The translations under genes and the position numbers were made by a program. Shown piece by piece: positions 35,376 to 62,111 of a stretch of 64,000 nucleotides of DNA (positions within the stretch are counted from its first letter, which is position 1; every line of letters starts with the position of its first letter). Origin of the DNA: Isoetes taiwanensis (taxonomy: Eukaryota > Streptophyta > Lycopodiopsida > Isoetales > Isoetaceae); NCBI GenBank assembly GCA_021234155.1, contig JAJEKV010000008.1:9636445-9700444 (forward strand). The letters are read 5' to 3'. The notes beneath the pieces are model-generated. The model was given only the letters and a program-made list of their open reading frames with translations, did not search any database and had not been told where the DNA came from.

Positions 35376-35439
35376 GTAAGAATGCTACTATTTTTTGTTA
35401 ACCTAATTTTGGAAGTAATTGACTTCAGATTGCATTACA

Positions 35440-36013: not shown

Positions 36014-36038
36014 TTCTGTGTCTTTCTGTGTTTTTCAG

Positions 36039-38932: not shown

Positions 38933-39120
38933 GGGAGAACCTCTCACTATTCAAATAAAGTTATAATACTGAGATGAGATGCACAATGATATAACTTAAC
39001 CAAAAAAGAGCAAGTAGAACATCATTGAGAAGAGCCAAATGCAGGCCACTGAAAAGTGCACTGTCAATTAGAAAGCAATGCTAGAAAAATTAGCCAGTGA
39101 TCCTAGAGATCTAGAGATCT

Positions 39121-41640
39121 CTCTGGCAAGTAAAGCATCATGGCTCTCCTCCCTGCTGGCTATGTTTTCGGGATGATGGATCCTTATATCTGCGTAGCTT
39201 GACCCTTGAGTTGAAGAAGTACCTGCCTTAGATGTACTCTTGTCGTTGAATAGCCTGGCTATTATCTTGAACTCTCTTTTTGTCGAAGGTGCTTCAGTTG
39301 CTATCCTTGTCGTTAAGGTGTCGAATGCTTCTACCTTGGGCGTTTGATGTCCCACATGTCGGAGATACGATCGGCTTCTTCTCTTCTAATTACTGGTAGG
39401 AGTACCTGACGAAGCCATCACCTAGTTGTTGAAGGCATATCTCCTCGTCGCGGTGCGTGTCATAGCGCATCACCCTATATTACCACAAGGTGGAATTATG
39501 GTCGTCGAGATGTTGCCTTCTTAGTTGGTTCGTTGATGTCGGGCCGTTCCTCCTTCTATTGTTGAGGCCACTCGTGTCATAAGTTCGTCAAGTGTTGCCG
39601 CTGCCACAAGAGGTAGTGTTGCGCCCTGACGATGTCTTGGTGCAGCGCTGATGATCTTGACATGACCAGTGTTGTCTCTTATTCTGACATTGGGTGGACA
39701 AGCGATCTTCTACTTGAGGGCACTTCCCGAAGTGTTTGAAGTCGAAGGCTTGCTTGGCCTCTGGTCGTTTCTCCCTCGTACTTGCTCTTCCATTTTGATC
39801 TTGGGCTATAGTTGTGCTTCCTTGCTTCCTCATTTGGTAGTCGAAGTGAAGGAGCTTCCTGATCTAAGCGCTAAATTCGTAAAACATGATTCTAAACTCA
39901 TGTTTCTCCACTATATATGTGAACACCCGAGATATACAATAGACATATACGCATTTACATTGGGATTCTAATTCATCCACTTTTCCAAAACAACTACGAA
40001 AATCTACTTAAATGTTTATACTCCTTTAGGGTTTTCCCCCCTCCTATCGCGTTTGATTCTTCGGCTTTGCTGCATCTTCTTCGTTCTGGTTGACTCCGGG
40101 ATTCCTTGAGATGCTGTCACTATTGTTGAGCTTCATGTCTGATCCGAGCTCGTCACGCCAAGTTGCGAAGAGTGTTCGTCGATGTGATCCCTTGAAAGAG
40201 ATGCTCCTCCTTGAAAGGAATGCGGTGACCGCTCAACGTCCTTACATGCGATGTGTCATTGCAAGATTGCCGATGTGCGGTGCCATTGATCGCTTGAGTA
40301 GGGTAACCTGGCTGTTGCAGTCGGGCATTCTTGAATGTCTTCAAAGCTCTGAGATCGTGGTCGGTAGGCAGGCATTGTCATTCCTCCGCAGGTTGAATTT
40401 CTAAGTGCGACTCCTGTTGCTTGTGCTTTGGTTCATTCCGAGGTGGCTCTCCTGTGCCTGGAAGTGTGGTCATCTCCATTGCCCCTACCATGGCTCCTTC
40501 TGGTCGCCTTTGCATGATTTGTACCTGCTGGCTAGGTCGTCTCCTCCGTCCCTTGGGTCCTACCCATTCGAGTCTCGCACTCCTTGGCTGACGTAGTAAA
40601 GTCGTCCTTCCTTTGGTTTGGTGTTTCTGGGTCCGAAATTCTTGTTCGAGCGAAATATTCTCTTCCTTGATCTTGCCCGTAATGCTGATATAGGCCTTCA
40701 AGTCGGAGATGTTCCCTGATATGCGTCTCCTCCCCCTCATGGTCTCCTACTTTTTGGAATCGATGAAAGTTCTCCTGCTGGTGCAAGGGAGCTGGAAGCT
40801 CGTCCTGGTCAGCCTTAGGTGCTTTGTGGTTGCCTAGCTTGGTTGCTCCTTTTGCTGACGTTGCATGACATTCGCTTGAGCTGCTGGGCTGCAAGGTCGT
40901 GGTTGTCTTCCCTCCGGTTTCTATACGCTCCTGTGTCGCCATGACTTCTCTCCTCGACGGAAGATTATGCCCTCTGGCCTTAGCTCGTGATGCTAATGTG
41001 GCATCAATGTCTAACGTCTTCCTGCACCTATATTTTGCTGCCTTGCGTTCTTCCATTTGAAACTCATGTGCGTCGAGTTGGTGAAGGCGTCGAGATCCTC
41101 TTTCTGATGTGACCTCGTGGACATGGTAGTCGGGTAGTTGACATCTAGAAAATTCTTGATGTCGTTGGTTACCAAATATTCTTTCCATTTGATGAAGATT
41201 GATGATAGGCCGGTGGTGTCCTGTTCTACTCGTTTGTCGGTTGAGGTGTTTGTCATTGTGCTTCCCTCTCTTGGGTCTGCCTTTTCGGTCTCCTCTCCTT
41301 ATCTGTCTGTACATCAGCTAGGACCTCGATGTCTTCAAGAAGTTGCGCCTCTAGCTCTTCTGCGGCTCTGGCCCTGTACTTCGAAAGCAACGCTCGCATA
41401 TCCTAGAGTCTAAGGGTCTACTTGAAGGGCTCTCCTACAACATTTTGGGCTCTATAAGCAAGCAAGATGGCTCGAGCAGCATTACTGGAGACATATCTAT
41501 AATCTCCAAGTCTATGGACATCAGGACGTGTGGTATGGCATGACATGAGGGTTGTTTTGCAAAACCTCCATGATGTTTGAGGCATACTCTAAGGTCCTAG
41601 CAAAGTTGATTTGGGGGAGTCCAATCTCTACACATGGAGT
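39121..41640 (-). pseudogene. Decayed, highly charged coding region (gag-like?)
   Basis: Base composition rises to near 50% GC and the minus strand shows long open stretches in changing frames. These are about 41460-41300 (K-Y-R-A-R-A-A-E-E-L-E-A-Q-L-L-E-D-I), about 41256-41010 (I-F-I-K-W-K-E-Y-L-V-T-N-D-I-K-N-F-L), 41314-40532 (260 codons, Arg/His/Gln-rich), about 40740-40378 (Y-I-S-I-T-G-K-I-K-E-E-N-I-S-L-E-Q-E) and 39355-39068 (R-E-F-K-I-I-A-R-L-F-N-D-K-S). Coiled-coil and basic content resemble a retroelement Gag, but I see no zinc knuckle, protease or RT. It has the same orientation as the LTR array next to it, so it may be the remains of a longer relative. Confidence 0.35.
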
Positions 41641-42385
41641 GACTTGGGCAGCTCTAGACTCTAGCTCCTTTCTAGGTATCCTGGCAATAGGGAGTGTCAA
41701 TGTGGCGGCTATATAAGTCAAACTCTATTAGAAGGACACAGAATTAGGTCAAGGTTTATGCTTTTGGCATGAGCAGAGGTGATGTACCAACAGTTGGACT
41801 TGGGTTGCTATGCTGAGATCTAGATGACTATAACAAAGGGGTGTTCTTGGGCACTTCTATCTAGGAGTAAGGCATCAGCTTTGAGCCGAGAGCAATACTT
41901 GTGAGGTACTAATGTGGGTATGCTTCTATTTACAAACAAACCACAGTTTGGAAAAACAATTCAAGGGTTTGAGCAATTTTGGTCATTTTGAGCTGGAGTT
42001 TGACATTTCTAGCCTAATTTGACTCATAAATGGATTCTAGGCTGTCTAACAGTTTTATTGCAACAAATTTCAGGCGATTTGGACTCTGTAGCTCAAGTTA
42101 TGGAGGTTCAAAGTTTGGAGGTCTCACACATTGCGCCCAGACCAATAATGAACTTTTCATTTTCGGTCCTGGCGTGACGTGTGAGACATTGGCTCTAAAT
42201 GGGTTAAACTTGTCCAATTTGGATGATATAAGGGTCTAATTCTGTTGGACTCATTTTAGGCAGAATTGACCCCTTATTTGGTCGATTTGGAGCTGTTTTG
42301 GGCACTTTTGGCGCATGGTCTCACACGTTGCGCCCGCACCAATAATGAACTTTTCATTTTCGGTCCTGGCGCGACGTGTGAGACA
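41641..42385 (-). mobile_element. Partial LTR at the left array edge (LTR0)
   Basis: Homology to the other LTRs starts at GACTTGGGCA (41641) and runs to GTGTGAGACA (42385). It therefore holds only U3 and the TATA region. The U5 end is missing, so the array edge is truncated rather than a normal insertion end. Confidence 0.8.
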
Positions 42386-42526
42386 TCCTCTCGAATTGGC
42401 CTAGGATGTCCGTTTTGACTAAAACAAAAGCTAAAACTTACTAACTCAACTTAATTAAGTAACTTCATACACTTATAATTTACTCTAAAACACTTTGTAT
42501 TAAACAAAATTTTATCATTTACGAAA

Positions 42527-42735
42527 TTAATAAGGCTCTCCTTTGATATGACTGGCTAAGTGCATATCTTTCTTCATTAGAGTTACTCCCTTGGCGTGTC
42601 TTTGTGCGTGTGCCGTTGAGTCTTCAAAATGTTGGACCAGCTTCGCTCTCACTGCTTCTTGAACCTTGGTCTCCTGCTCTCGTTTCGCCCTCTCCTCTTC
42701 TTGTATCTCTCGCTCTATCTCCTTTCAGACACTTC
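42527..42735 (-). pseudogene. Histone H3-like C-terminal ORF, internal 1
   Basis: The minus strand encodes Q-E-A-A-..., F-E-D-S-T-A and V-T-L-M-K-K-D-M-H-L-A-S-H-I-K-G-E-P-Y. Relative to internal 3 the frame is disturbed around the former CTG/CAG sites (GTGTCTTTGTGCGTG region and CTTCGCTCTCACTG). The primer site next to the LTR here reads TGGTATCAAAGC (43032-43043). Confidence 0.6.
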
Positions 42736-43044
42736 TTGGGTCTAATATACAAATCTAACTAATCCTTACCTTAAAACTCGATCTAGCATGTTACCTTTTT
42801 TTGAAATTCATCAAGTATTAATGTGTTTATGGCCTAATGTCTTAGAAAGATTTGGCTCAACTGTTTTTAGTCTTTTTATGTTCCAATTCGCTTAACTGTT
42901 ACTAGCTTAGCATATACTACAAAAATACGAAAAAAAAAAAAATTTTCCCACTTTTCGAGGTTTGAGGATCCTATCAAGTTAGTACTACTGGGAGCATGGC
43001 CAGTGCTTTGCTCTTGGTCTCCAAGAACATTGCTTTGATACCAC

Positions 43045-44865
43045 TGTGACGTCCCCTACTCATATAAGGTGCATTCACCGTATACAAACAGGAGTTCATC
43101 CCCCATACCAGCTCCATGCTAATATAGGGCCCTCCACGTATCACTGCAACCTTGAGGAGTTCCAGTGGGAAGAATGAAGGGGTCATTTACCCTGTCTCCC
43201 TCAGGGCCTACCTAGCTGCGGAAGCGTAAACATACATGTCGATGAGTACATACATCAACATCATATGACCATCACGAAGGATGGTTCACCACATATCTGC
43301 ATAGACAAAGATCAAAGACATCACATAGGGAATCCTACCCAAAGCTCGGACAATCGGATGGACCGACAAGCTTGGGTCTCCAGAGGTCATTGCGCATGTA
43401 ATTCATGGCAATGGATTTGGCTGGCATAAGAACATGGCTTAGGGTAGTCCACTCCATCCGCCCTCCCCGTGCACACTTTGCAAAGTAGGTTGAAAAGTGT
43501 TGGGACCTGATCAGAGCCTCACGGATACATAGCCAAAGGGGCTATTCCCGGGGTTGCATCTCCCCATTCGATGGGGCGCGATAGGGATCTCTCCCTCCGA
43601 GATCTACATGCCGACTTAAGGTGACTAGAGGGCCACCGTCCTTATTCGACTTGAACCCAATGGAGAGTGACGATCACTCCACGGCAAATTGTCGAGCCCA
43701 TGCCTTGCCCACACGCAGCTGGCAAGCCATCAGACCTAGTCCACAATGATCCCCTGGTGAGGCCTTACACACCGGAGGGATCGCTCAAGGGTCGAACACC
43801 TAACCTCCTTATAAGCCGGGCCGGCCCTTCACCCACAACCTGTGTGTGGTTCTTGTCTGCACGCAGCCGAATTTACAATGTGCTAAAGAGGCTAGCTAGG
43901 AGCATCAACTACCAGGCTTTAGGGTCTCTACCCCCCTTCCCAATACAATGAGTCCACAGAGATACATCATCATACATATCACAGAAGAACTAAAGAACAA
44001 GATCTAATCTATATCATAGAGTTAGGTTCTTTAGTTAGAGCTAGGAATCTAGAGATCTAGATGGTCTGCTATGGGCAATTTAATAGGCTAAACCCTCTTG
44101 ATTCGATGACCGGAAGACTTGGGCATCTCTAGACTCTAGCTCCTTTCTAGGTATCCTGGCAATAGGGAGTGTCAATGTGGCGGCTATATAAGTCAAACTC
44201 TATTAGAAGGACACAGAATTAGGTCAAGGTTTATGCTTTTGGCATGAGCAGAGGTGATGTACCAACAGTTGGACTTGGGTTGCTATGCTGAGATCTAGAT
44301 GACTATAATGAAGGGGTGTTCTTGGGCACTTCTATCTAGGAGTAAGGCATCAGCTTTGAGCCGAGAGCAATACTTATGAGGTACTAATGTGGGTATGCTT
44401 CTATTTATAAACAAACCACAGTTTGGAAAAACAATTCAAGGGTTTGAGCAATTTTGGTCATTTTGAGCTGAGGTTTGACATTTCTAGCCTAATTTGACAT
44501 CATAAATGGATTCTAGGCTGTCTAACAGTTTTATTGCAACAAATTTCAGGCGATTTGGAGCTCTGTAGCTCAAGTTATGGAGGTTCAAAGTTTGGAGGTC
44601 TCACACATTGCGCCCAGACCAATAATGAACTTTTCATTTTCGGTCCTGGCGCGACGTGTGAGACATTGGCTCTAAATGGGTTAAACTTGTCCAATTTGGG
44701 TGATATAAGGGTCTAATTCTGCTGGACTCATCGAGTTAGGCAGAATTGACCCCTTATTTGGTCGATTTGGAGCTGTTTTGGGCACTTTTGGGGCATGGTC
44801 TCACACGTTGCGCCCACACCAATAATGAACTTTTCATTTTCGGTCCTGGCGCGACGTGTGAGACA
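43045..44865 (-). mobile_element. LTR 1 (1,821 bp)
   Basis: On the minus strand it starts TGTCTCACACGTCGCGCC, has a TATA box (TTTATAAATAG, plus strand at about 44402), and ends GGGACGTCACA. It carries the TG...CA termini of LTR retroelements. A purine-rich GAGAGGA precedes it (polypurine-tract candidate) and the primer site follows its other end. Confidence 0.8.
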
Positions 44866-45006
44866 TCCTCTCGAATTGGCCTAGAATGTCCGTTTTGACT
44901 AAAACAAAAGCTAAAACTTACTAACTCAACTTAATTAAGTAACTTCATGCACTTATAATTTACTCTAAAACACTTTGTATTAAACAAAATTTTATCATTT
45001 ACGAAA

Positions 45007-45213
45007 TTAATAAGGCTCTCCTTTGATATGACTGGCTAAGTGCATATCTTTCTTCATTAGAGTTACTCCCTTGGCGTGTACTGTGCAGGCTGTTGAGTCT
45101 TCAAAATGTTGGACCAGCTTCTGCTCTGCTGCTTCTTGAACCTTGGTCTCCTGCTCTCGTTCTGCCCTCTCCTCTTCTTGTATCTCTCGCTCTATCTCTT
45201 TCCAGACACTTCT
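45007..45213 (-). pseudogene. Histone H3-like C-terminal ORF, internal 2
   Basis: The H3-like half, from Q-E-A-A-E to G-E-P-Y, is intact. The N-terminal part differs from internal 3 by a +2 change (CTCTTTCCAGACA against CTGCTCGTACA on the plus strand), which shifts the upstream frame. A perfect primer site TGGTATCAGAGC (minus strand) lies at 45509-45520. Confidence 0.65.
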
Positions 45214-47046
45214 TGGGTCTAATATACAAATCTAACTAATCCTTACCTTAAAACTCGATCTAGCATGTTACCTTTTTTTGAAATTCATCAAGTATTAAGG
45301 TGTTTATGGCCTAATGTCTTAGAAAGATTTGGCTCAACTGTTTTTAGTCTTTTTATGTTCCAATTAAACCCAATCAATACTAGCTTAGCATATACTACAA
45401 AAATGAGAAAAAAAAAAAAATTTCCCACTTTTCGAGGTTTGAGGATCCTATCAAGTTAGTACTACTGGGAGCATGGCCAGTGCTTTGCTCTTGGTCTCCA
45501 AGAACATTGCTCTGATACCACTGTGACGTCCCCTACTCATATACGGTGCACTCACCGTATACAAACAGGAGTTCATCCCCCATACCAGCTCCATGCTAAT
45601 ATAGGGCCCTCCACGTATCACTGCAACCTTGAGGAGTTCCAGTGGGAAGAATGAAGGGGTCATTTACCCTGTCTCCCTCAGGGCCTACCTAGCTGCGGAA
45701 GCGTAAACATACATGTCAGTAGTACATACATCAACATCATATGACCATCACGGCGATGGTTCACCACATATCTGCATAGACAAAGATCAAGACATCACAT
45801 AGGGAATCCTACCCAAAGCTCAGACACCGGGATGGACTGACAAGCTTGGGTCTCCAGAGGTCATTGCAGACAGAATTCATGGCAATGGATTTGGCTGGCA
45901 TAAGAACATGGCTTAGGGTAGTCCACTCCATCCGCCCCTCCTGTGCACACTTTGCAAAGTAGGTTGAAAAGTGTTGGGACCTGACTGTAGCCCGCCGGAT
46001 GCATAGCCAAATTGCATCTCCCCAGTTCCGATGGGGCAGGTAGGGATCTCTCCCTCCAGAGATCTACATGCTGACTCAAGGTGACTAGAGGGCCACTGCC
46101 CTTATTCGACTTGAACCCAATGGAGAGTGACGATCACTCCACGGGCAAATCGAGCCCATGCCTTGCCCACACGCAGCGGGCAAGCCATCGACCTAGTCCA
46201 CAATGATCCCCGGTAGGCCTTACACACCAGAGGGATCGCTCAAGAGTCGAACACCTAACCTCCTTATAAGCCAGTCTGGCCCTTCACCCACAACCAGGTG
46301 TGGTTCTTGTACACAGGCCAAATTTACAGTGTGCTAAAGAGGCTAGCTAGGAGCATCAACTACCAGGCTTTAGGGTCTCTACCCCCCTTCCCAATACAAT
46401 GAGTCCACAGAGATACATCATCATACATATCACAGAAGAACTAAAGAACAAGATCTAATCTATATCATAGAGTTAGGTTCTTTAGTTAGAGCTTGGTATC
46501 TAGAGATCTAGATGGTCGCTATGGGCAATTTAATAGGCTAAACCTACTGATTCGATGACCGAAGACTTGGGCATCTCTAGACTCTAGCTCCTTTCTAGGT
46601 ATCCTGGCAATAGGGAGTGTCAATGTGGCGGCTATATAAGTCAAACTCTATTAGAAGGACACAGAATTAGGTCAAGGTTTATGCTTTTGGCATGAGCAGA
46701 GGTGATGTACCAACAGTTGGACTTGGGTTGCTATGCTGAGATCTAGATGACTATAACGAAGGGGTGTTCTTGGGCACTTCTATCTAGGAGTAAGGCATCA
46801 GCTTTGAGCCGAGAGCAATACTTGTAAGGTACTAATGTGGGTATGCTTCTATTTATAAACAAACCACAGTTTGGAAAAACAATTCAAGGGTTTGAGCAAT
46901 TTTGGTCATTTTGAGCTGGGGTTTGACATTTCTAGCCTAATTTGACGTCATAAATGGATTCTAGGCCGTCCTAACAGTTTTATTGCAACAAATTTCAGGC
47001 GATTTGGAGCTCTGTAGCTCAAGTTATGGAGGTTCAAAGTTTGGAG

Positions 47047-47113
47047 GTCTCACACATTGCGCCCAGACCAATAATGAACTTTTCATTTTCGGTCCTGGCG
47101 CGACGTGTGAGAC
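47047..47113. repeat. 67-bp hairpin block in U3 (first of pair)
   Basis: GTCTCACACATTGCGCC and GGCGCGACGTGTGAGAC form a 17-bp near-perfect inverted repeat around a 33-base loop. The same block recurs 200 bp away at 47247-47313, where the arms match except at one position (GTT against GTC). Every complete LTR in the array has the pair. Confidence 0.75.
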
Positions 47114-47246
47114 ATTGGCTCTAAATGGGTTAAACTTGTCCAATTTGGATGATATAAGGGTTTAATTCTGCTGGACTCATCGAGTTAGGCAGAATTGACC
47201 CCTTATTTGGTCGATTTGGAGCTGTTTTGGGCACTTTTGGGGCATG

Positions 47247-47313
47247 GTCTCACACGTTGCGCCCAGACCAATAATGAACTTTTCATTTTCGGTCCTGGCG
47301 CGACGTGTGAGAC
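47247..47313. repeat. 67-bp hairpin block in U3 (second, at the LTR end)
   Basis: GTCTCACACGTTGCGCC ... GGCGCGACGTGTGAGAC. Its outer arm is the LTR terminus itself, so one end of the LTR is embedded in a hairpin. It could be a transcription-factor or silencing-related element. The function is not known. Confidence 0.7.
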
Positions 47314-47457
47314 ATCCTCCTCTCAATTGGCCTAGAATGTCCGTTTTGACTAAAACAAAAGCTAAAACTTACTAACTCAACTCAATTAAGTAACTTCATG
47401 CACTTATAATTTACTCTAAAACACTTTGTATTAAACAAAATTTTATCATTTACGAAA

Positions 47458-47658
47458 TTAATAAGGCTCTCCTTTGATATGACTGGCTAAGTGCATATCT
47501 TTCTTCATTAGAGTTACTCCCTTGGCGTGTACTGTGCAGGCTGTTGAGTCTTCAAAATGTTGGACCAGCTTCTGCTCTGCTGCTTCTTGAACCTTGGTCT
47601 CCTGCTCTCGTTCTGCCCTCTCCTCTTCTTGTATCTCTCGCTCTATCTGCTCGTACAC
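47458..47658 (-). CDS. Histone H3-like ORF in LTR element, best copy (internal 3)
   Basis: This is the cleanest copy: 66 codons on the minus strand ending TAA. Its first part is a Glu/Arg/Gln-rich helix (I-E-R-E-I-Q-E-E-E-R-A-E-R-E-Q-E-T-K). The last 44 residues align without gaps to the end of the histone H3 fold (alpha2-loop2-alpha3) with roughly half identical: QEAAE, LV, FED, C, HAK, VT, M, KD, LA, I and GE are all in register. The V-T-L-M-K-K-D loop resembles CENH3 variants more than canonical V-T-I-M-P-K-D. There is no ATG; the frame opens after TAG within a possible acceptor TATATTAG, as a 3' exon would. The H3 tail, alphaN and alpha1 are absent. It is a captured H3-type exon; expression is unknown. 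Confidence 0.7.
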   Translation of the reverse strand: MYEQIEREIQEEERAEREQETKVQEAAEQKLVQHFEDSTACTVHAKGVTLMKKDMHLASHIKGEPY

Positions 47659-47952
47659 TTCTTGGGTCTAATATACAAATCTAACTAATCCTTACCTTAA
47701 AACTCGATCTAGCATGTTATCTTTTTTTGAAATTCATCAAGTATTAAGGTGTTTATGGCCTAATGTCTTAGAAAGATTTGGCTCAACTGTTTTTAGTCTT
47801 TTTATGTTCCAATTCGCTTAACTGTTACTAGCTTAGCATATACTACAAAAATAAGAAAAAAAAAATTCCCACTTTTCGAGGTTTGAGGATCCTATCAAGT
47901 TAGTACTACTGGGAGCATGGCCAGTGCTTTGCTCTTGGTCTCCAAGAACATT

Positions 47953-47964
47953 GCTCTGATACCA
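47953..47964 (-). promoter_or_regulatory. Primer-binding site, tRNA-iMet type
   Basis: TGGTATCAGAGC on the minus strand is complementary to the 3' end of plant initiator tRNA-Met and lies one base from the LTR end. Perfect copies also occur at 45509-45520, 55301-55312, 57736-57747 and 60182-60193. Other units differ only at CTG/CAG positions. Confidence 0.85.
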
Positions 47965-47965
47965 C

Positions 47966-49752
47966 TGTGACGTCCCCTACTCATATACGGTGCACTCACC
48001 GTATACAAACAGAGTTCATCCCCATACCAGCTCCATGCTAATATAGGGCCCTCCACGTATCACTTGCAACCTTGAGGAGTTCCAAAGGGGAAGAATGAAG
48101 GGGTCATTTACCCCTGCCTCCCTCGGGCCTACCTAGTCATGGAAGCGTAAACATACATGTCGAGAGTACATACATCAACATCATATGACCATCACGGCGG
48201 ATGGTTCACCACATATCTGCATAGACAAAGATCAGCACATCACATAGGGAATCCTACCCAAAGCTCGCATTAACGGGATGGACCGACAAGCTTGGGTCTC
48301 CGTGAGGTCATTGCGCATGTAATTCATGGCAATGGATTTGGCCGGCATAAGAACATGGCTTAGGGTAGTCCACTCCATCCGCCCCCCCCGTGCACACTTT
48401 GCAAAGTAGGTTGAAAAGTGTTGGGACCTCGACCAGAGTTCACGGATGCATAGCCAAATTGCATCTCCCCAGCCCGATGGGGCGGTAGGGATCTCTCCCT
48501 CCGTGAGATCTACATGCCGACTCAAGGTGACTAGAGGGCCACCGCCCTTATTCGACTTGAACCCAATGGAGAGTGACGATCACTCCACCTGTGTCGAGCC
48601 CATGCCTTGCCCACACGCGGGCAAGCCATCGCACCTAGTCCACAATGATCCCCGGTAGGCCTTACACACGAGGGGGATCGCTCAAGAGTCGAAACACGAA
48701 CCTCCTTATAAGCCGGTCCCGCCCTTCACCCACAACCGTGTGTGGTTCTTGTACACAGGCCAAATTTACAAGGTGCTAAAGAGGCTAGCTAGGAGCATCA
48801 ACTACCGTGCTTTAGGGTCTCTACCCCCTTCCCAATACAATGAGTCCACGAGATACATCATCATACATATCACGTAAGAACTAAAGAACAAGATCTAATC
48901 TATATCATAGAGTTAGGTTCTTTAGTTAGAGCTTGGTATCTAGAGATCTAGATGGCTGCTATGGGCAATTTAATAGGCTAAACCCTCTTGATTCGATGAC
49001 CGGAAGACTTGGGCATCTCTAGACTCTAGCTCCTTTCTAGGTATCCCGGCAATAGGGAGTGTCAATGTATGCTATATAAGTCAAACTCTATTAGAAGGAC
49101 ACAGAATTAGGTCAAGGTTTATGCTTTTGGCATGAGCAGAGGTGATGTACCAACAGTTGGACTTGGGTTGCTATGCTGAGATCTAGATGACTATAACGAA
49201 GGGGTGTTCTTGGGCACTTCTATCTAGGAGTAAGGCATCAGCTTTGAGCCGAGAGCAATACTTGTAAGGTACTAATGTGGGTATGCTTCTATTTATAAAC
49301 AAACCACAGTTTGGAAAAACAATTCAAGGGTTTGAGCAATTTTGGTCATTTTGAGCTGGGGTTTGACATTTCTAGCCTAATTTGACGTCATAAATGGATT
49401 CTAGGCCGCCTAACAGTTTTATTGCAACAAATTTCAGGCGATTTGGAGCTCTGAGCTCAAGTTATGGAGGTTCAAAGTTTGGAGGTTCACACATTGCGCC
49501 CGCACCAATAATGAACTTTTCATTTTCGGTCCTGGCGCGACGTGTGAGACATTGGCTCTAAATGGGTTAAACTTGTCCAATTTGGATGATATAAGGGTTT
49601 AATTCTGCTGGACTCATCGAGTTAGGCAGAATTGACCCCTTATTTGGTCGATTTGGAGCTGTTTTGGGCACTTTTTAGCATGGTCTCACACGCTGCGCCC
49701 ACACCAATAATGAACTTTTCATTTTCGGTCCCGGGCGCTGACGTGTGAGACA
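47966..49752 (-). mobile_element. LTR 3 (1,787 bp)
   Basis: It has the same borders as LTR 2, with many small differences at CAG/CTG/CCG sites (for example TAGTCATGG for TAGCTGCGG). The TATA box is kept (plus, about 49289). Confidence 0.8.
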
Positions 49753-49894
49753 TCCTCCTCGAATTGGCCTAGAATGTCCGTTTTGACTAAAACAAAAGCT
49801 AAAACTTACTAACTCAACTCAATTAAGTAACTTCATGCACTTATAATTTACTCTAAAACACTTTGTATTAAACAAAATTTTATCATTTACGAAA

Positions 49895-50100
49895 TTAATA
49901 AGGCTCTCCTTTGATATGACTGGCTAAGTGCATATCTTTCTTCATTAGAGTTACTCCCTTGGCGTGTAATTGTGTGCCGTTGAGTCTTCAAAATGTTGGA
50001 CCAGCTTCGCTTTCTGCCGCTTCTTGAACCTTGGTCTCCCCCCGCTCTCGTTCGCCCTCTCCTCTTCTTGTATCTCTCGCTCTATCTGCTCATTACACTT
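49895..50100 (-). pseudogene. Histone H3-like ORF, internal 4 (frameshifted)
   Basis: The segment coding C-terminal V-T-L-M-K-K-D...G-E-P-Y is intact. The central part is shifted where other copies have CTGTGCAGGCTG and CTGCTCTGCTG. The adjacent primer site is degraded (CGATACCACCATG). Confidence 0.55.
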
Positions 50101-50411
50101 CTTGGGTCTAATATACAAATCTAACTAATCCTTACCTTAAAACTCGATCTAGCATGTTATCTTTTTTGAAATTCATCAAGTATTAAGGTGTTTATGGCCT
50201 AATGTCTTAGAAAGATTTGGCTCAACTGTTTTTAGTCTTTTTATGTTCCAATTAAACTTAATCAAGCATTACTAGCTTAGCATATACTACAAAAATGAGA
50301 AAAAAAAAAATTCCCACTTTTCGAGGTTTGAGGATCCTATCAAGTTAGTACTATTTGGGAGCATGGCGGTGCTTTGCTCTTGGTCTCCAAGAACATTGCT
50401 CGATACCACCA

Positions 50412-52219
50412 TGTGGCGTCCCCTACTCATATACGGTGCACTCACCGTATACAAACAGAGTTCATCCCCATACCAGCTCCATGCTAATATAGGGCCCTCC
50501 ACGATCACTTTGCAACCTTGAGGAGTTCCAAAGGGGAAGAATGAAGGGGTCATTTACCCCGCTCCCTCGGGGCCTACCTAGTCTAGCGAAGCGTAAACAT
50601 ACATGTCGATGGTACATACATCAACATCATATGACCATCACGAAGGATGGTTCACCACATATCTGCATAGACAAAGATCAAAGACACATCACATAGGGAA
50701 TCCTACCCAAAGCTCGGACACCGGGATGGACCACAAGCTTGGGTCTCCAGAGGTCATTGCGCATGCCGAAATTCATGGCAATGGATTTGGGCGGCATAAG
50801 AACATGGCTTAGGGTAGTCCACTCCATCCGCCCCTCCCCCCCATTGCACACTTTGCAAAGTAGGTTGAAAAGTGTTGGGACCTCGATCAGAGCCACCGGA
50901 TGCATAGCCAAATTGCATCTCCCCAGTTCCGATGGGGCAGGTAGGGATCTCTCCCTCCAGAGATCTACATGCTGACTCAAGGTGACTAGAGGGCCACTGC
51001 CCTTATTCGACTTGAACCCAATGGAGAGTGACGCATCACTCCACTCCCGCAGTCGAGCCCATGCCTTGCCCACACGCAGCGGGCAAGCCATCGCACCTAG
51101 TCCACAATGATCCCCGGTAGGCCTTACACACGAGAGGGGATCGTTCAAGAGTCGAACACGAACCTCCTTATAAGCCGGGCCTCGGCCCTTCACCCACAAA
51201 CTGTGTGTGGTTCTTGTACACAGCCAAATTTACAAATTGTGCTAAAGAGGCTAGCTAGGAGCATCAACTACCAGGCTTTAGGGTCTCTACCCCCCTTCCC
51301 AATACAATGAGTCCACAGAGATACATCATCATACATATCACAGAAGAACTAAAGAACAAGATCTAATCTATATCATAGAGTTAGGTTCTTTAGTTAGAGC
51401 TTGGTATCTAGAGATCTAGATGGCTGCTATGGGCAATTTAATAGGCTAAACCCTACTGATTCGATGACCGGAAGACTTGGGCATCTCTAGACTCTAGCTC
51501 CTTTCTAGGTATCCCGGCAATAGGGAGTGTCAATGTGGCTATATAAGTCAAACTCTATTAGAAGGACACAATTTAGGTCAAGGTTTATGCTTTTGGCATG
51601 AGCAGAGGTGATGTACCAACAGTTGGACTTGGGTTGCTATGCTGAGATCTAGATGACTATAACGAAGGGGTGTTCTTGGGCACTTCTATCTAGGAGTAAG
51701 GCATCAGCTTTGAGCCGAGAGCAATACTTGTAAGGTACTAATGTGGGTATGCTTCTATTTATAAACAAACCACAGTTTGGAAAAACAATTCAAGGGTTTG
51801 AGCAATTTTGGTCATTTTGAGCTGGGGTTTGACATTTCTAGCCTAATTTGACGTCATAAATGGATTCTAGGCCGTCTAACAGTTTTATTGCAACAAATTT
51901 CAGGCGATTTGGAGCTCTGTAGCTCAAGTTATGGAGGTTCAAAGTTTGGAGGTCTCACACATTGCGCCCAGACCAATAATGAACTTTTCATTTTCGGTCC
52001 TGGCGCGACGTGTGAGACATTGGCTCTAAATGGGTTAAACTTGTCCAATTTGGATGATATAAGGGTTTAATTCTGCTGGACTCATCGAGTTAGGCAGAAT
52101 TGACCCCTTATTTGGTCGATTTGGAGCTGTTTTGGGCACTTTTGGGGCATGGTCTCACACGTTGCGCCCACACCAATAATGAACTTTTCATTTTCGGTCC
52201 TGGCGCGACGTGTGAGACA
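50412..52219 (-). mobile_element. LTR 4 (about 1.81 kb)
   Basis: The 3' border reads TGTGGCGTCCCC instead of TGTGACGTCCCC on the plus strand. The TATA box and hairpin pair are present. Confidence 0.8.
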
Positions 52220-52360
52220 TCCTCTCGAATTGGCCTAGAATGTCCGTTTTGACTAAAACAAAAGCTAAAACTTACTAACTCAACTTAATTAAGTAACTTC
52301 ATGCACTTATAATTTACTCTAAAACACTTTGTATTAAACAAAATTTTATCATTTACGAAA

Positions 52361-52560
52361 TTAATAAGGCTCTCCTTTGATATGACTGGCTAAGTGCATA
52401 TCTTTCTTCATTAGAGTTACTCCCTTGGCATGTACTGTGCAGGCTGTTGAGTCTTCAAAATGTTGGACCAGCTTACGCTCTGCTTTGCTTCTTGAACCTT
52501 GGTCTCCCCGCTCTCGTTCGCCCTCTCCTCTTCTTGTATCTCTCGCTCTATCTCTTTCAT
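52361..52560 (-). pseudogene. Histone H3-like ORF, internal 5
   Basis: The H3-like part from L-V-Q-H-F-E-D to G-E-P-Y is open in frame. The upstream Glu-rich part is in another frame because of indels at CTG/CAG positions. Confidence 0.6.
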
Positions 52561-52870
52561 TACACTTCTTGGGTCTAATATACAAATCTAACTAATCCTT
52601 ACCTTAAAACTCGATCTAGCATGTTACCTTTTTTTTGAAATTCATCAAGTATTAAGGTGTTTATGGCCTAATGTCTTAGAAAGATTTGGCTCAACTGTTT
52701 TTAGTCTTTTTATGTTCCAATTCGCTTAACTGTTACTAGCTTAGCATATACTACAAAAATGAGAAAAAAAAAATTCCCACTTTTCGAGGTTTGAGGATCC
52801 TATCAAGTTAGTACTCTTCGGGAGCATGGCCGTGCTTTGCTCTTGGTCTCCAAGAACATTGCTCGATACC

Positions 52871-54660
52871 ACCGCGTCCCCCTACTCATATACGGTGCAC
52901 TCACCGTATACAAACAGAGTTCATCCCCATACCAGCTCCATGCTAATATAGGGCCCTCCACGTATCACTTTGCAACCTTGAGGAGTTCGGTGGGAAGAAT
53001 GAAGGGGTCATTTACCCTGTCTCCCTCAGGGCCTACCTAGCTGCGGAAGCGTAAACATACATGTCAGTAGTACATACATCAACATCATATGACCATCACG
53101 AAGGATGGTTCACCACATATCTGCATAGACAAAGATCAGCACATCACATAGGGAATCCTACCCAAAGCTCAGACACCGGGATGGACTGACAAGCTTGGGT
53201 CTCCAGAGGTCATTGCAGACAGAATTCATGGCAATGGATTTGGCTGGCATAAGAACATGGCTTAGGGTAGTCCACTCCATCCGCCCCTCCTGTGCACACT
53301 TTGCAAAGTAGGTTGAAAAGTGTTGGGACCTGACTGTAGCCCGCCGGATGCATAGCCAAATTGCATCTCCCCAGTTCCGATGGGGCAGGTAGGGATCTCT
53401 CCCTCCAGAGATCTACATGCTGACTCAAGGTGACTAGAGGGCCACTGCCCTTATTCGACTTGAACCCAATGGAGAGTGACGCATCACTCCACGGGTGTCG
53501 AGCCCATGCCTTGCCCACACGCAGTGGCAAGCCATCAGACCTAGTCCACAATGATCCCTGGTAGGCCTTACACACGAGAGGGATCGTTCAAGAGTCAGAA
53601 CACGAACCTCCTTATAAGCCAGTCTGGCCCTTCACCCACAACCAGGTGTGGTTCTTGTACACAGGCCGAATTTACAGTGTGCTAAAGAGGCTAGCTAGGA
53701 GCATCAACTACCAGGCTTTAGGGTCTCTACCCCCCTTCCCAATACAATGAGTCCACAGAGATACATCATCATACATATCACAGAAGAACTAAAGAACAAG
53801 ATCTAATCTATATCATAGAGTTAGGTTCTTTAGTTAGAGCTTGGTATCTAGAGATCTAGATGGCTGCTATGGGCAATTTAATAGGCTAAACCCTCTTGAT
53901 TCGATGGTTGGAAGACTTGGGCATCTCTAGACTCTAGCTCCTTTCTAGGTATCCCGGCAATAGGGAGTGTCAATGTGGCTATATAAGTCAAACTCTATTA
54001 GAAGGACACAGAATTAGGTCAAGGTTTATGCTTTTGGCATGAGCAGAGGTGATGTACCAACAGTTGGACTTGGGTTGCTATGCTGAGATCTAGATGACTA
54101 TAACGAAGGGGTGTTCTTGGGCACTTCTATCTAGGAGTAAGGCATCAGCTTTGAGCCGAGAGCAATACTTGTAAGGTACTAATGTGGGTATGCTTCTATT
54201 TATAAACAAACCACAGTTTGGAAAAACAATTCAAGGGTTTGAGCAATTTTGGTCATTTTGAGCTGGGGTTTGACATTTCTAGCCTAATTTGACGTCATAA
54301 ATGGATTCTAGGCTGTCTAACAGTTTTATTGCAACAAATTTCAGGCGATTTGGAGCTCTGTAGCTCAAGTTATGGAGGTTCAAAGTTTGGAGGTCTCACA
54401 CATTGCGCCCAGACCAATAATGAACTTTTCATTTTCGGTCCTAGCGCGACGTGTGAGACATTGGCTCTAAATGGGTTAAACTTGTCCAATTTGGGTGATA
54501 TAAGGGTCTAATTCTGCTGGACTCATCGAGTTAGGCAGAATTGACCCCTTATTTGGTCGATTTGGAGCTGTTTTGGGCACTTTTGGGGCATGGTCTCACA
54601 CGTTGCGCCCACACCAATAATGAACTTTTCATTTTCGGTCCTGGCGCGACGTGTGAGACA
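52871..54660 (-). mobile_element. LTR 5 (about 1.79 kb)
   Basis: The TGTGACG border is lost (ACCGCGTCCCCC on the plus strand); otherwise canonical. It carries a CTAGCGCGACG variant in the first hairpin (about 54440), shared with LTR 6. Confidence 0.75.
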
Positions 54661-54801
54661 TCCTCTCGAATTGGCCTAGAATGTCCGTTTTGACTAAAAC
54701 AAAAGCTAAAACTTACTAACTCAACTTAATTAAGTAACTTCATGCACTTATAATTTACTCTAAAACACTTTGTATTAAACAAAATTTTATCATTTACGAA
54801 A

Positions 54802-55000
54802 TTAATAAGGCTCTCCTTTGATATGACTGGCTAAGTGCATATCTTTCTTTAATTAGAGTTACTCCCTTGGCGTGTACTGTGCAGGCTGTTGAGTCTTCAA
54901 AATGTTGGACCAGCTTCTGCTCTGCTGCTTCTTGAACCTTGGTCTCCTGCTCTCGTTCTGCCCTCTCCTCTTCTTGTATCTCTCGCTCTATCTGCTCGTA
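54802..55000 (-). pseudogene. Histone H3-like ORF, internal 6 (C-terminal frameshift)
   Basis: It is in frame from the Glu-rich region through H-A-K-G-V-T-L, then shifted by a one-base TTTAATT-for-TTCATT change at about 54850 that is not at a CHG site and is shared with internal 7. This looks like a real lesion. Confidence 0.6.
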
Positions 55001-55313
55001 CACTTCTTGGGTCTAATATACAAATCTAACTAATCCTTACCTTAAAACTCGATCTAGCATGTTACCTTTTTTTGAAATTCATCAAGTATTAAGGTGTTTA
55101 TGGCCTAATGTCTTAGAAAGATTTGGCTCAACTGTTTTTAGTCTTTTTATGTTCCAATTCGCTTAACTGTTACTAGCTTAGCATATACTACAAAAATGAG
55201 AAAAAAAAAATTTCCCACTTTTCGAGGTTTGAGGATCCTATCAAGTTAGTACTACTGGGAGCATATGGCCAGTGCTTTGCTCTTGGTCTCCAAGAACATT
55301 GCTCTGATACCAC

Positions 55314-57088
55314 TGTGACGTCCCCTACTCATATACGGTGCACTCACCGTATACAAACAGGAGTTCATCCCCCATACCAGCTCCATGCTAATATAGGGCC
55401 CTCCACGTATCACTGCAACCTTGAGGAGTTCCAGTGGGAAGAATGAAGGGGTCATTTACCCTGTCTCCCTCAGGGCCTACCTAGCTGCGGAAGCGTAAAC
55501 ATACATGTCGATGGTACACATACATCAACATCATATGACCATCCGCGAAGGATGGTTCACCACATATCTGCATAGACAAAGATCAAGACATCACATAGGG
55601 AATCCTACCCAAAGCTCGGACAGGATGGGTGACAAGCTTGGGTCTCCAGAGGTCATTGCAGACAGAATTCATGGCAATGGATTTGGCTGGCATAAGAACA
55701 TGGCTTAGGGTAGTCCACTCCATCCGCCCCTCCTGTGCACACTTTGCAGAGTAGGTTGAAAAGTGTTGGGACTGGATCAGCCAGCCCGGATGCATAGCCA
55801 AATTGCATCTCCCGCCCGGATGGGGCGGTAGGGATCTCTCCCTCCGAGAGATCTACATGCTTGACTCAAGGTGACTAGAGGGCCACCCCTTATTCGACTT
55901 GAACCCAATGGAGAGTGACGCATCACTCCACGGGTGTCGAGCCCATGCCTTGCCCACACGCAGTGGCAAGCCATCAGACCTAGTCCACAATGATCCCTGG
56001 TAGGCCTTACACACGAGAGGGATCGTTCAAGAGTCAGAACACGAACCTCCTTATAAGCCAGTCTGGCCCTTCACCCACAACCAGGTGTGGTTCTTGTACA
56101 CAGGCCGAATTTACAGTGTGCTAAAGAGGCTAGCTAGGAGCATCAACTACCAGGCTTTAGGGTCTCTACCCCCCTTCCCAATACAATGAGTCCACAGAGA
56201 TACATCATCATACATATCACAGAAGAACTAAAGAACAAGATCTAATCTATATCATAGAGTTAGGTTCTTTAGTTAGAGCTTGGTATCTAGAGATCTAGAT
56301 GGCTGCTATGGGCAATTTAATAGGCTAAACCTACTGATTCGATGACTGGAAGACTTGGGCATCTCTAGACTCTAGCTCCTTTCTAGGTATCCTGGCAATA
56401 GGGAGTGTCAATGTGGCGGCTATATAAGTCAAACTCTATTAGAAGGACACAGAATTAGGTCAAGGTTTATGCTTTTGGCATGAGCAGAGGTGTGGACTTG
56501 GGTTGCTATGCTGAGATCTAGATGACTATAACGAAGGGGTGTTCTTGGGCACTTCTATCTAGGAGTAAGGCATCAGCTTTGAGCCGAGAGCAATACTTGT
56601 GAGGTACTAATGTGGGTATGCTTCTATTTATAAACAAACCACAGTTTGGAAAAACAATTCAAGGGTTTGAGCAATTTTGGTCATTTTGAGCTGGGGTTTG
56701 ACATTTCTAGCCTAATTTGACGTCATAAATGGATTTTAGGCTGTCTAACAGTTTTATTGCAACAAATTTCAGGCGATTTGGAGCTCTGTAGCTCAAGTTA
56801 TGGAGGTTCAAAGTTTGGAGGTCTCACACATTGCGCCCAGACCAATAATGAACTTTTCATTTTCGGTCCTAGCGCGACGTGTGAGACATTGGCTCTAAAT
56901 GGGTTAAACTTGTCCAATTTGGGTGATATAAGGGTCTAATTCTGCTGGACTCATCGAGTTAGGCAGAATTGACCCCTTATTTGGTCGATTTGGAGCTGTT
57001 TTGGGCACTTTTGGGGCATGGTCTCACACGTTGCGCCCACACCAATAATGAACTTTTCATTTTCGGTCCTGGCGCGACGTGTGAGACA
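55314..57088 (-). mobile_element. LTR 6 (1,775 bp), 13-bp deletion
   Basis: Canonical borders and a perfect primer site at 55301-55312. It lacks the 13 bp ATGTACCAACAGT at about 56491, a deletion shared only with LTR 8. Confidence 0.8.
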
Positions 57089-57229
57089 TCCTCTCGAATT
57101 GGCCTAGAATGTCCGTTTTGACTAAAACAAAAGCTAAAACTTACTAACTCAACTTAATTAAGTAACTTCATACACTTATAATTTACTCTAAAACACTTTG
57201 TATTAAACAAAATTTTATCATTTACGAAA

Positions 57230-57437
57230 TTAATAAGGCTCTCCTTTGATATGACTGGCTAAGTGCATATCTTTCTTTAATTAGAGTTACTCCTTGGCGT
57301 GTAATGTCTTGTGCGGTTTGAGTCTTCAAAATGTTGGACCAGCTTCGCTCTGCTTTGCTTCTTGAACCTTGGTCTCCTGCTCTCGTTCGCGCCCTCTCCT
57401 CTTCTTGTATCTCTCGCTCTATCTCTTTCGCAGACAC
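57230..57437 (-). pseudogene. Histone H3-like ORF, internal 7 (frameshifted)
   Basis: It shares the TTTAATT lesion with internal 6 and has further changes around the CTG/CAG positions, so the QEAAE to FED stretch is broken. Confidence 0.55.
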
Positions 57438-57748
57438 TTCTTGGGTCTAATATACAAATCTAACTAATCCTTACCTTAAAACTCGATCTAGCATGTTACC
57501 TTTTTTTGAAATTCATCAAGTATTAAGGTGTTTATGGCCTAATGTCTTAGAAAGATTTGGCTCAACTGTTTTTAGTCTTTTTATGTTCCAATTCGCTTAA
57601 CTGTTACTAGCTTAGCATATACTACAAAAATGAGAAAAAAAAAAAAATTTCCCACTTTTCGAGGTTTGAGGATCCTATCAAGTTAGTACTACTGGGAGCA
57701 TGGCCAGTGCTTTGCTCTTGGTCTCCAAGAACATTGCTCTGATACCAC

Positions 57749-59540
57749 TGTGACGTCCCCTACTCATATACGGTGCACTCACCGTATACAAACAGGAGTT
57801 CATCCCCCATACCAGCTCCATGCTAATATAGGGCCCTCCACGTATCACTGCAACCTTGAGGAGTTCCAGTGGGAAGAATGAAGGGGTCATTTACCCTGTC
57901 TCCCTCAGGGCCTACCTAGCTGCGGAAGCGTAAACATACATGTCAGTAGTACATACATCAACATCATATGACCATCACGAAGGATGGTTCACCACATATC
58001 TGCATAGACAAAGATCAGCACATCACATAGGGAATCCTACCCAAAGCTCAGACACCGGGATGGACTGACAAGCTTGGGTCTCCAGAGGTCATTGCGCAAG
58101 AATTCATGGCAATGGATTTGGCTGGCATAAGAACATGGCTTAGGGTAGTCCACTCCATCCGCCCCTCCTGTGCACACTTTGCAAAGTAGGTTGAAAAGTG
58201 TTGGGACCTGACTGTAGCCCGCCGGATGCATAGCCAAATTGCATCTCCCCAGTTCCGATGGGGCAGGTAGGGATCTCTCCCTCCAGAGATCTACATGCTG
58301 ACTCAAGGTGACTAGAGGGCCACTGCCCTTATTCGACTTGAACCCAATGGAGAGTGACGCATCACTCCACGGGTGTCGAGCCCATGCCTTGCCCACACGC
58401 AGTGGCAAGCCATCAGACCTAGTCCACAATGATCCCTGGTAGGCCTTACACACGAGAGGGATCGTTCAAGAGTCAGAACACGAACCTCCTTATAAGCCAG
58501 TCTGGCCCTTCACCCACAACCAGGTGTGGTTCTTGTACACAGGCCGAATTTACAGTGTGCTAAAGAGGCTAGCTAGGAGCATCAACTACCAGGCTTTAGG
58601 GTCTCTACCCCCCTTCCCAATACAATGAGTCCACAGAGATACATCATCATACATATCACAGAAGAACTAAAGAACAAGATCTAATCTATATCATAGAGTT
58701 AGGTTCTTTAGTTAGAGCTTGGTATCTAGAGATCTAGATGGCTGCTATGGGCAATTTAATAGGCTAAACCTACTGATTCGATGACTGGAAGACTTGGGCA
58801 TCTCTAGACTCTAGCTCCTTTCTAGGTATCCTGGCAATAGGGAGTGTCAATGTGGCGGCTATATAAGTCAAACTCTATTAGAAGGACACAGAATTAGGTC
58901 AAGGTTTATGCTTTTGGCATGAGCAGAGGTGATGTACCAACAGTTGGACTTGGGTTGCTATGCTGAGATCTAGATGACTATAACGAAGGGGTGTTCTTGG
59001 GCACTTCTATCTAGGAGTAAGGCATCAGCTTTGAGCCGAGAGCAATACTTGTAAGGTACTAATGTGGGTATGCTTCTATTTATAAACAAACCACAGTTTG
59101 GAAAAACAATTCAAGGGTTTGAGCAATTTTGGTCATTTTGAGCTGGGGTTTGACATTTCTAGCCTAATTTGACGTCATAAATGGATTCTAGGCTGTCTAA
59201 CAGTTTTATTGCAACAAATTTCAGGCGATTTGGAGCTCTGTAGCTCAAGTTATGGAGGTTCAAAGTTTGGAGGTCTCACACATTGCGCCCAGACCAATAA
59301 TGAACTTTTCATTTTCGGTCCTGGCGCGACGTGTGAGACATTGGCTCTAAATGGGTTAAACTTGTCCAATTTGGATGATATAAGGGTTTAATTCTGCTGG
59401 ACTCATCGAGTTAGGCAGAATTGACCCCTTATTTGGTCGATTTGGAGCTGTTTTGGGCACTTTTGGGGCATGGTCTCACACGTTGCGCCCACACCAATAA
59501 TGAACTTTTCATTTTCGGTCCTGGCGCGACGTGTGAGACA
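57749..59540 (-). mobile_element. LTR 7 (1,792 bp)
   Basis: Canonical copy with perfect borders, primer site (57736-57747), TATA box and hairpin pair; almost identical to LTRs 2 and 5 outside CHG sites. Confidence 0.85.
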
Positions 59541-59681
59541 TCCTCTCGAATTGGCCTAGAATGTCCGTTTTGACTAAAACAAAAGCTAAAACTTACTAAC
59601 TCAACTTAATTAAGTAACTTCATGCACTTATAATTTACTCTAAAACACTTTGTATTAAACAAAATTTTATCATTTACGAAA

Positions 59682-59884
59682 TTAATAAGGCTCTCCTTTG
59701 ATATGGTGGCTAAGTGCATATCTTTCTTCATTAGAGTTACTCCTTGGCGTGTCTTGTGGCAAGGTGCTGTTGAGTCTTCAAAATGTTGGACCAGCTTCTG
59801 CTCTGCTGCTTCTTGAACCTTGGTCTCCTGCTCTCGTTCTGCCCTCTCCTCTTCTTGTATCTCTCGCTCTATCTGCTCGTACAC
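59682..59884 (-). pseudogene. Histone H3-like ORF, internal 8
   Basis: It is open through the Glu-rich part, QEAAEQKLVQHFEDST and V-T-L-M-K-K-D-M-H-L-A. It is then shifted by a loss at the ACTGG site (GATATGGTGGC for GATATGACTGGC) near 59704. It is one of the better copies. Confidence 0.65.
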
Positions 59885-60194
59885 TTCTTGGGTCTAATAT
59901 ACAAATCTAACTAATCCTTACCTTAAAACTCGATCTAGCATGTTACCTTTTTTTGAAATTCATCAAGTATTAAGGTGTTTATGGCCTAATGTCTTAGAAA
60001 GATTTGGCTCAACTGTTTTTAGTCTTTTTATGTTCCAATTCGCTTAACTGTTACTAGCTTAGCATATACTACAAAAATGAGAAAAAAAAAATTTCCCACT
60101 TTTCGAGGTTTGAGGATCCTATCAAGTTAGTACTACTGGGAGCATATGGCCAGTGCTTTGCTCTTGGTCTCCAAGAACATTGCTCTGATACCAC

Positions 60195-61970: not shown

Positions 61971-62111
61971 TCCTCTCGAATTGGCCTAGAATGTCCGTTT
62001 TGACTAAAACAAAAGCTAAAACTTACTAACTCAACTTAATTAAGTAACTTCATACACTTATAACTTACTCTACAACACTTTGTATTAAACAAAATTTTAT
62101 CATTTACGAAA

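Follow-up and report, generated by a model that had tools for sequence, protein, structure and literature searches.

The 64,000-nucleotide window of Isoetes taiwanensis DNA analysed here carries a tandem array of a truncated histone H3 gene. We interpret this array as part of a non-autonomous LTR retrotransposon family, whose Ty3/gypsy relatives possess a complete H3 in their ORF1 and would bring it to chromatin, whereas the window copies would be relics; we give this joint reading a probability of about 0.6. The homology, the anatomy, the dispersal and the conservation of the ORF1 H3 fold are observed, and from them we infer the role in chromatin. The complete and conserved H3 domain of ORF1 lies outside the window, hence it was missed by an earlier reading made from the window sequence alone (the sequence-only reading).

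The frame in question is a 69-codon stop-to-stop frame on the minus strand (47458..47667, stop included; TQEVYEQIEREIQ...HIKGEPY), which is preceded by TATATTAG and consists of a Glu-rich segment followed by part of helix α2, loop L2 and helix α3 of H3. Its H3-homologous portion, defined by homology and alignment, spans 44 codons with the stop codon included (47458..47592, minus strand). The 66-codon ORF within it (47461-47658) matched Pfam PF00125 with an E-value of 6.4e-8 and 33.3 bits against a cut-off of 26.4, bearing out the histone assignment of the sequence-only reading. Moreover, PDB H3 chains matched the 66-residue translation with E=5e-10 and its 43-residue C-terminal part alone with E=5.6e-9, so the Glu-rich part is dispensable for the match. 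The stop of the window ORF falls at the position of the H3 stop, with 43 residues from Q93 on both sides. In addition, the dispersed short form aligns to host H3 without gaps, with 18 differences over 43 residues and the stop at the identical place; at position 116 it has an arginine, compared to a glycine in the window copy. By sequence comparison, the ORF and the C-terminal third of histone H3 are homologous. A tblastn search of the window found no further H3 piece beyond the C-terminal one, and Rfam returned nothing at gathering score for the window. No relatives of the short form emerged from a search of protein sequences, and none from viral contigs.

The window ORF has no complete histone fold and comprises only part of α2, L2 and α3; the window copies are devoid of an ATG, the H3 tail and α1. 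In the window frame a TAG stands immediately 5' of ACC CAA GAA GTG, and no in-frame ATG precedes the H3 part. The window-type short form (S1) has TTTGTATATTAG immediately 5' of the same codons, and a stop occupies this site in all 16 window-type loci of the 3.2-kb set, to which the window copy itself (L014) belongs. L010, L048 and L049 also have a stop immediately before the short-form H3 frame, whereas the second window copy (L024) is frame-shifted where the other window-type loci have the stop. As an option for the window frame, we considered an upstream exon that would be joined at TTAG|ACC by splicing. AlphaFold, given an alignment with 15 CENH3-type rows, predicted the window ORF as one straight helix covering residues 2-61 (pTM 0.49). 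A short form without α1 and L1 cannot form the handshake of H3 with H4, and, if expressed, it could act only via a tail or a four-helix bundle. The proposed interference with H3 or CENH3 dimers is thus unsupported for the window copy, which has no start codon, no α1 and a one-helix model.

The tandem array (41641..63432, minus strand) is composed of full ~2.44-kb units and truncated ends, and contains nine short-form copies. The ungapped H3 homology and the nine minus-strand copies described by the sequence-only reading stand; however, only two of the nine copies gave a tblastn match uninterrupted through all 66 codons. The second of these (45010..45207) is 95% identical, and the seven others, all on the minus strand, are interrupted or partial (42530-42688, 49898-50035, 52364-52483, 54805-54943, 57233-57388, 59685-59824 and 62121-62240). 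At the right end of the array, the start of an LTR of the ORF1 type, which belongs to the elements with full H3, begins with TGTGACGTTCC on the plus strand (63433..63621) and resembles the LTR of locus L013 over 26 bp at 92% and 85 bp at 81%. The array extends past the window end (contig position 9700444) to 9717718. Four more copies of its non-frame DNA lie at contig positions 9710207-9717718, so the array resumes beyond the inserted ORF1-type LTR.

Within the unit that contains the frame, the primer-binding site TGGTATCAGAGC (47953..47964, minus strand), which we take to be of the initiator tRNA-Met type, follows right after an LTR end ...GACGTCACAG, and this junction recurs in dispersed copies. 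The stretch leading into the copy (47965..49007, minus strand) corresponds to the terminal ~1.04 kb of a 5' LTR rather than to a whole LTR, as seen from mapping to the dispersed locus L034: array unit positions 1402-2444 map to L034 sense 3376-4434, within an LTR that starts at 2819. On the other side, the first ~1.4 kb of the internal region (46564..47964, minus strand) holds the primer site, the H3-derived frame and 70-bp foldback repeats, and ends at an array joint near 46564. Beyond the array edge, two blocks (39118..41640, minus strand) contain more of this family's internal sequence, 93-95% identical to L034. The mapping identifies the 2.44-kb unit as a 5' LTR end joined to the primer site and an internal stretch of 1.4 kb, and we propose that it was multiplied by recombination or duplication.

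The sequence-only reading had instead taken the array as tandem LTR-internal units of a small element with the H3 ORF as its only coding content. The primer site does adjoin a CA end and the unit does repeat head to tail, but dispersed copies have the supposed LTR in two pieces, the terminal 1.04 kb preceding the primer site and the initial 0.75 kb following the frame, with conserved element sequence outside both, and the real LTR starts at TGTGACGTTCC. Some dispersed copies are without parts of the split LTR-like stretch; where both edges are present, it is bordered by sequence common to dispersed copies and the left flank of the window. A tandem of LTR plus internal units with shared LTRs is refuted by the dispersed copies examined, and this anatomy deserves hardly any credence. 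The array unit is a piece of a longer element, which removes the claim of a sole coding content. Similarly, the ORF had been placed between a tRNA-Met primer site and a purine-rich tract, of which the primer site holds; the tract is no LTR-adjoining polypurine tract, and dispersed copies continue through it.

A foldback of ~70 bp (TCTCACAC...GTGTGAGA) occurs in the window at 47046-47115 and 47246-47315, with counterparts in other units, amounting to two copies per array unit, and once more in L034 near 4640-4710; it is perhaps a small hairpin element.

The interruptions of the array frames have to be seen against the quality of the assembly. The genome searched comprises 1,658,258,908 bases in 1110 contigs; passages of the genome paper (PMC8566536) give an assembly of 1658.30 Mb in 204 scaffolds and 909 unplaced contigs, made from Nanopore reads and polished with racon and pilon. 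Among the eight full array units, 430 variable columns fall into 93 runs, 37 of which contain 342 of the columns, and the differences are enriched at CAG/CTG (4.5-fold) and CCG/CGG (3.0-fold), and also at CG. Differences between near-identical copies are clustered, with scrambled bases and indels, and the copies of two other duplications inside the window also differ in clusters (9 and 12 runs of at least 4 columns). These clusters look like nanopore consensus errors at methylated cytosines, and the array frame interruptions are probably in part assembly error. Frame breaks in this assembly are therefore to be read with caution. As a sign of decay they are unusable, given the clustering of the differences and their position at CAG/CTG and CCG/CGG trinucleotides.

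The short form is present at other places in the genome. A search with the 69-residue frame gave 7402 first-look candidates; among the 150 that were scored, 129 have no stop inside the match and five belong to the window array. Using 136 bp of DNA outside the frame as query, we obtained 1083 candidates and scored 40, of which 13 lie on the contig of the window (9678832 to 9717718) and 27 elsewhere, nine of the latter being also among the 150 protein-scored places. Sixteen dispersed loci (L034-L049), all picked from the protein-scored list, were inspected at 10 kb each. In five of six loci examined the LTR begins with TGTGACGTTCC and has differing 5' flanks; the exact TGTGACGTTCC motif was not found at the LTR start of L047. 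The LTR ends with ...GACGTCACA(G) ahead of TGGTATCAGAGC, and this junction is present in 11 of the 16 loci at up to two mismatches. L047, the only locus followed as far as the 3' LTR, forms with L051 an LTR pair of 96.3% identity over 1.62 kb. No match to the reverse transcriptase (RT) of L050, which belongs to the ORF1 elements described below, was found in L047 or L051, and only L037 of the 16 loci has an RT match, on the opposite strand. By its LTR pair and primer site, with no pol of its own, the window family is classified as a non-autonomous LTR element. The sequence-only reading is supported in that an LTR retrotransposon family with a tRNA-Met primer site does carry H3-derived sequence, which has been locally amplified.

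Some dispersed copies possess more of H3 than the window copies. In L026, L030 and L031, an H3 N-terminus MARTK[Q/L]TAR stands upstream of the short-form C-terminal frame, with 551-553 bases from ATG to stop. In L046 and L047, M[T/M]RTKQTARLPRQG is in one frame with the Glu-rich part and the H3 C-terminus, giving about 80 residues with an ATG (each observed as a single copy); the tail M[T/M]RTKQTAR has leucine instead of lysine at position 9. The unbroken frames of L046 and L047, together with the upstream tails of the other three loci, would agree with an expressed mini-H3 that acts as a histone mimic or poison, as a decoy for H3-tail readers or as an intruder into the H3-H3' four-helix bundle. 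However, the tail and the C-terminal part are split by stops or frame shifts in L026, L030 and L031, the window type has no ATG, and the AlphaFold model is a single helix (pTM 0.49). Nor does the substitution pattern help: the dN/dS among window-type copies is low (0.14-0.17; 0.17 at n=17), but all of these loci except one were ranked by protein similarity, and simulated neutral copies ranked alike gave 0.15-0.42 in 12 runs. The low value is explained by ascertainment and ruled out as proof of selection, and we consider an expressed mini-H3 unlikely. The S1 copy in L010, met by chance, has an unbroken frame with 8 synonymous and 10 non-synonymous differences from the window copy, a sign of selection that is mild at best. 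With no upstream ATG, seven of nine copies interrupted (in part by assembly error) and the low dN/dS accounted for by ascertainment, we consider the window copies most likely to be passively carried relics.

A genome search with PF00125 gave 8705 candidates, 150 of which were scored. Fifteen of these are canonical by score (at least 164 bits), among which eight sequences (L001-L008) read as canonical H3 folds. Among the 135 non-canonical matches, which we do not claim to be elements throughout, 36 belong to uninterrupted frames of at least 400 codons, and 5 are themselves broken by a stop. Four loci from among the thousands of candidates, all HMM-ranked, were inspected (L009, L010, L011 and L013; L012 covers the L009 place a second time). 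All four have an ORF1 with H3, then a second ORF, then Gag/protease frames. ORF1 has 450-459 codons from the first plausible Met in L009-L011 and is frame-shifted in L013. It consists of an N-terminal part of ~330 residues with a Glu/Lys- or Glu/Gln-rich stretch, a degenerate H3 tail and a complete H3 fold, which in the three folds scanned matched PF00125 with E-values of 2.6e-38, 2.1e-40 and 1.2e-43. In L013, ORF1 lies between the primer site (2894) and gag; at up to two mismatches, L009 and L010 gave no primer site match and L011 gave one, away from any LTR end.

The ORF downstream of ORF1 (YLDGEHWDPxVPFDLL...; L010:4716-5507, L011:5358-6362 and L013:5110-6477) has no Pfam match; the L013 version is 84% identical to that of L011 over 248 residues and about 35% to that of L010. 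In L011, RVP_2 was found above its cut-off (E=8.6e-14), and Retrotrans_gag, Ty3_capsid and zf-CCHC below theirs; a protease is also present in L009, and Gag-like frames in L010 and L013. L050, which adjoins L013, encodes RVT_1 (E=2.3e-35), RNase H and Integrase_H2C2 (E=6.2e-21), with rve below its cut-off (9.4e-6). By these profile matches the ORF1-H3 elements are assigned to Ty3/gypsy, with Gag, protease, RT, RNase H and integrase in gypsy order, the order of the last three being seen in one locus (L013 to L050) and in two frames. L013 and L050 share a repeat of 97.6% identity over 2.04 kb that includes the LTR and runs ~434 bp past the LTR start. The ~434 bp stand ahead of both the 5' and the 3' LTR (L013:852-1285 and L050 2889-3317), and GACCG occurs beside the LTRs in three places; the two loci may be a rearranged or a tandem element.

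The N-terminal part of ORF1 alone, used as query, gave 4599 candidates and 121 places. In at least 43 of the 121, a scored H3 match (one of the 135) follows directly downstream; this is a minimum, as scoring covered few H3 candidates. Forty-five of the places are interrupted by one or more stops. The other 76 are free of stops, and 36 of these lie in a frame of at least 440 codons.

Comparison of ORF1 between two lineages (L009 and L011) revealed that 83 of 97 residues of the H3 fold are identical, with pS.854 and pN.116. By contrast, the N-terminal part of ORF1 keeps 112 of 334 residues (pS.833, pN.447), and Gag is 61% identical. Within one lineage (L011 and L013), dN/dS of the H3 fold is.075. 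Compared to the host H3 gene L001, ORF1 H3 has a pS of 0.87-1.05, so the similarity does not stem from recent recapture. Furthermore, copy ranking alone cannot yield this conservation, because ranking acts on copies and not on lineages. These substitution patterns indicate that the element-borne ORF1 H3 is under long purifying selection, with synonymous sites near saturation. The short form and ORF1 H3 might otherwise both be passive passengers, pieces of captured host genes without function for the element; gene capture is common in plant LTR elements, as described in parts of PMC7264820 and PMC13317346, and the window copies are mostly broken. Against this stand the residues kept between lineages despite near-saturated synonymous sites, the weaker conservation of the ORF1 N-terminus and Gag, and the synonymous distance from host H3 that excludes a recent recapture. 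For ORF1 the passenger explanation is unlikely, and for both forms together it is quite improbable.

ORF1 H3 differs from host H3 at 12-15 of 96 fold residues. At 23 fold positions that we take to contact DNA, H4 or H3', each of L009, L011 and L013 is unchanged at 22, and the sole changes are K/R exchanges (R42K in L009; K64R in L011 and L013). L009 has Y41, H87 and L90 in its H3 fold, and L011 and L013 have F87; Y41, H87 and L90 presumably mark plant H3.3 versus H3.1. In a phylogenetic tree, the four ORF1 folds form one group (87/86) within H3, and CENH3 is set apart (100/100), with a bootstrap that has not settled. Unlike host H3, the folds of L009, L011 and L013 have AILALQ and DANLC in common, and the altered tails of L009-L011 are homologous (HPGTAGK, HPSTGGK), with lysine 9 replaced and the K27 part missing. 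The single group, the shared motifs and the homologous tails argue for one capture of H3 by the ORF1 elements. Host and element H3 both read QEFKTDLRF, where human, yeast and Arabidopsis H3 presumably read QDFKTDLRF.

The origin of the short form is less clear. Its L2 loop, VTLMKKD, was rightly called CENH3-like by the sequence-only reading: the leucine is found in 114 of 120 and the lysine in 64 of 120 CENH3-type sequences, the 120 best matches to an Arabidopsis query and all from flowering plants where named. The short form scored 52.5 bits with the CENH3 HMM versus 41.7 with a narrow five-sequence H3 HMM, and its best identity is 26 of 38 residues to P0085, compared to 22 to plant H3. On these grounds a separate capture from host CENH3, rather than descent from H3 or an ORF1-type ancestor, is a serious possibility that we nevertheless hold to be less than even. 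The C-terminus, I-K-G-E plus two residues and then the stop, has the length of H3, and H3 is also matched by I38, by E41 and by the spacing to the stop; moreover, the CENH3 set derives from a single Arabidopsis query and the H3 HMM is narrow. The window ORF thus combines a CENH3-like loop 2 with an H3-like C-terminus, and L1 is absent. As for the elements themselves, both H3-carrying families have the same LTR ends, the primer site (in L013) and an H3-derived frame in first position, and share one LTR block of ~150 bp at 82.7%, which favours common descent of the elements. For their H3 parts, the residues compared give a divided picture, with the loop of the short form pointing to CENH3 and its end to H3.

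The H3 fold of ORF1 is intact, keeps its contacts and has changed less than the ORF1 N-terminus and Gag have, a pattern for which pairing with H4 and entry into nucleosomes would be the simplest explanation. The ORF1 protein would pair with host H4 via its fold and enter or contact nucleosomes, whereby the element may supply chromatin with an H3 of its own that lacks lysine 9 and the K27 region. ORF1 could then tether the integration complex to chromatin, or form nucleosomes unable to receive silencing methylation, leaving element chromatin poor in H3K9/K27 methylation. The lysine-9 argument is weakened in that H3 lies at the C-terminus of a fusion and its tail is not free. We tentatively suggest, as a scenario with less than an even chance, that a lycophyte Ty3/gypsy lineage took up host H3 and that its ORF1 puts an H3 lacking K9 and K27, together with a targeting domain, into nucleosomes, thereby escaping silencing or choosing integration sites; purifying selection would have kept it until synonymous saturation, and mini-H3 forms would have spread with non-autonomous relatives.

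Compared to histone H3/H3.3, ORF1 H3 keeps the fold and 22 of the 23 presumed contacts, but it is fused behind ~330 residues, with lysine 9 replaced and the K27 region missing. The window family resembles LARD and TRIM elements in being non-autonomous with LTRs and a primer site, with no RT found in L047, but it differs from them in that its first ORF position is taken by H3-derived coding sequence. Additional domains in LTR elements and extra ORFs in plant gypsy elements are known, and the nearest case in the parts of the literature covered is a Ty3/gypsy element of Phalaenopsis with an AlkB m6A-demethylase ORF (PMC9289625). There, too, a host-related gene is fixed as an additional ORF; however, that ORF holds an RNA-demethylase domain, whereas the ORF1 elements hold a core histone. 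The same study screened 121 angiosperm genomes and found 15 non-canonical domains, and its section on these unusual domains names no histone. Chromoviruses likewise address chromatin with a retrotransposon protein, according to passages of PMC9289625 and PMC12786077. Their chromodomain reads H3 marks, whereas ORF1 carries H3 itself, upstream of gag. Head-to-tail arrays of plant LTR elements are described as tandem LTR retrotransposon structures (PMC11899658) and Cassandra arrays (PMC7215508); the former are reported to share LTRs between internal regions, whereas the window unit has its boundaries within the LTR and within the internal region.

In open-licence PMC papers, as far as their accessible passages go, no report of an LTR element carrying a core histone was found, and those on captured genes or additional ORFs describe no histone-bearing element. 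The word 'histone' is absent from the main texts of a gene-capture review (PMC13317346), of two papers on additional ORFs and of the genome paper (PMC8566536); PMC10952607, which alone combines Isoetes, LTR retrotransposon and histone H3, has bryophyte chromatin as its subject according to its abstract. The novelty is judged from the literature only, and the ORF1 comparisons were made within the Isoetes taiwanensis genome. If true, a selectively kept histone in a mobile element would reverse the usual picture, in which elements only read or dodge host chromatin, as the element would supply a building block of chromatin. The ways in which transposons counter H3K9 methylation could then be tested directly, in a plant lineage for which functional genomics is scarce.

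Two further features of the window lie outside the array. Two long duplications (12570-16516 versus 32056-36013, and 20198-23319 versus 36005-39120) are collinear at 96.6%, with differing sequence between them, and represent either a segmental duplication or unpurged haplotypes. On the plus strand, the frame at 3238-3720 gave a sub-threshold match to TPR_12 (E=5.7e-4) and resembles plant TONSOKU.
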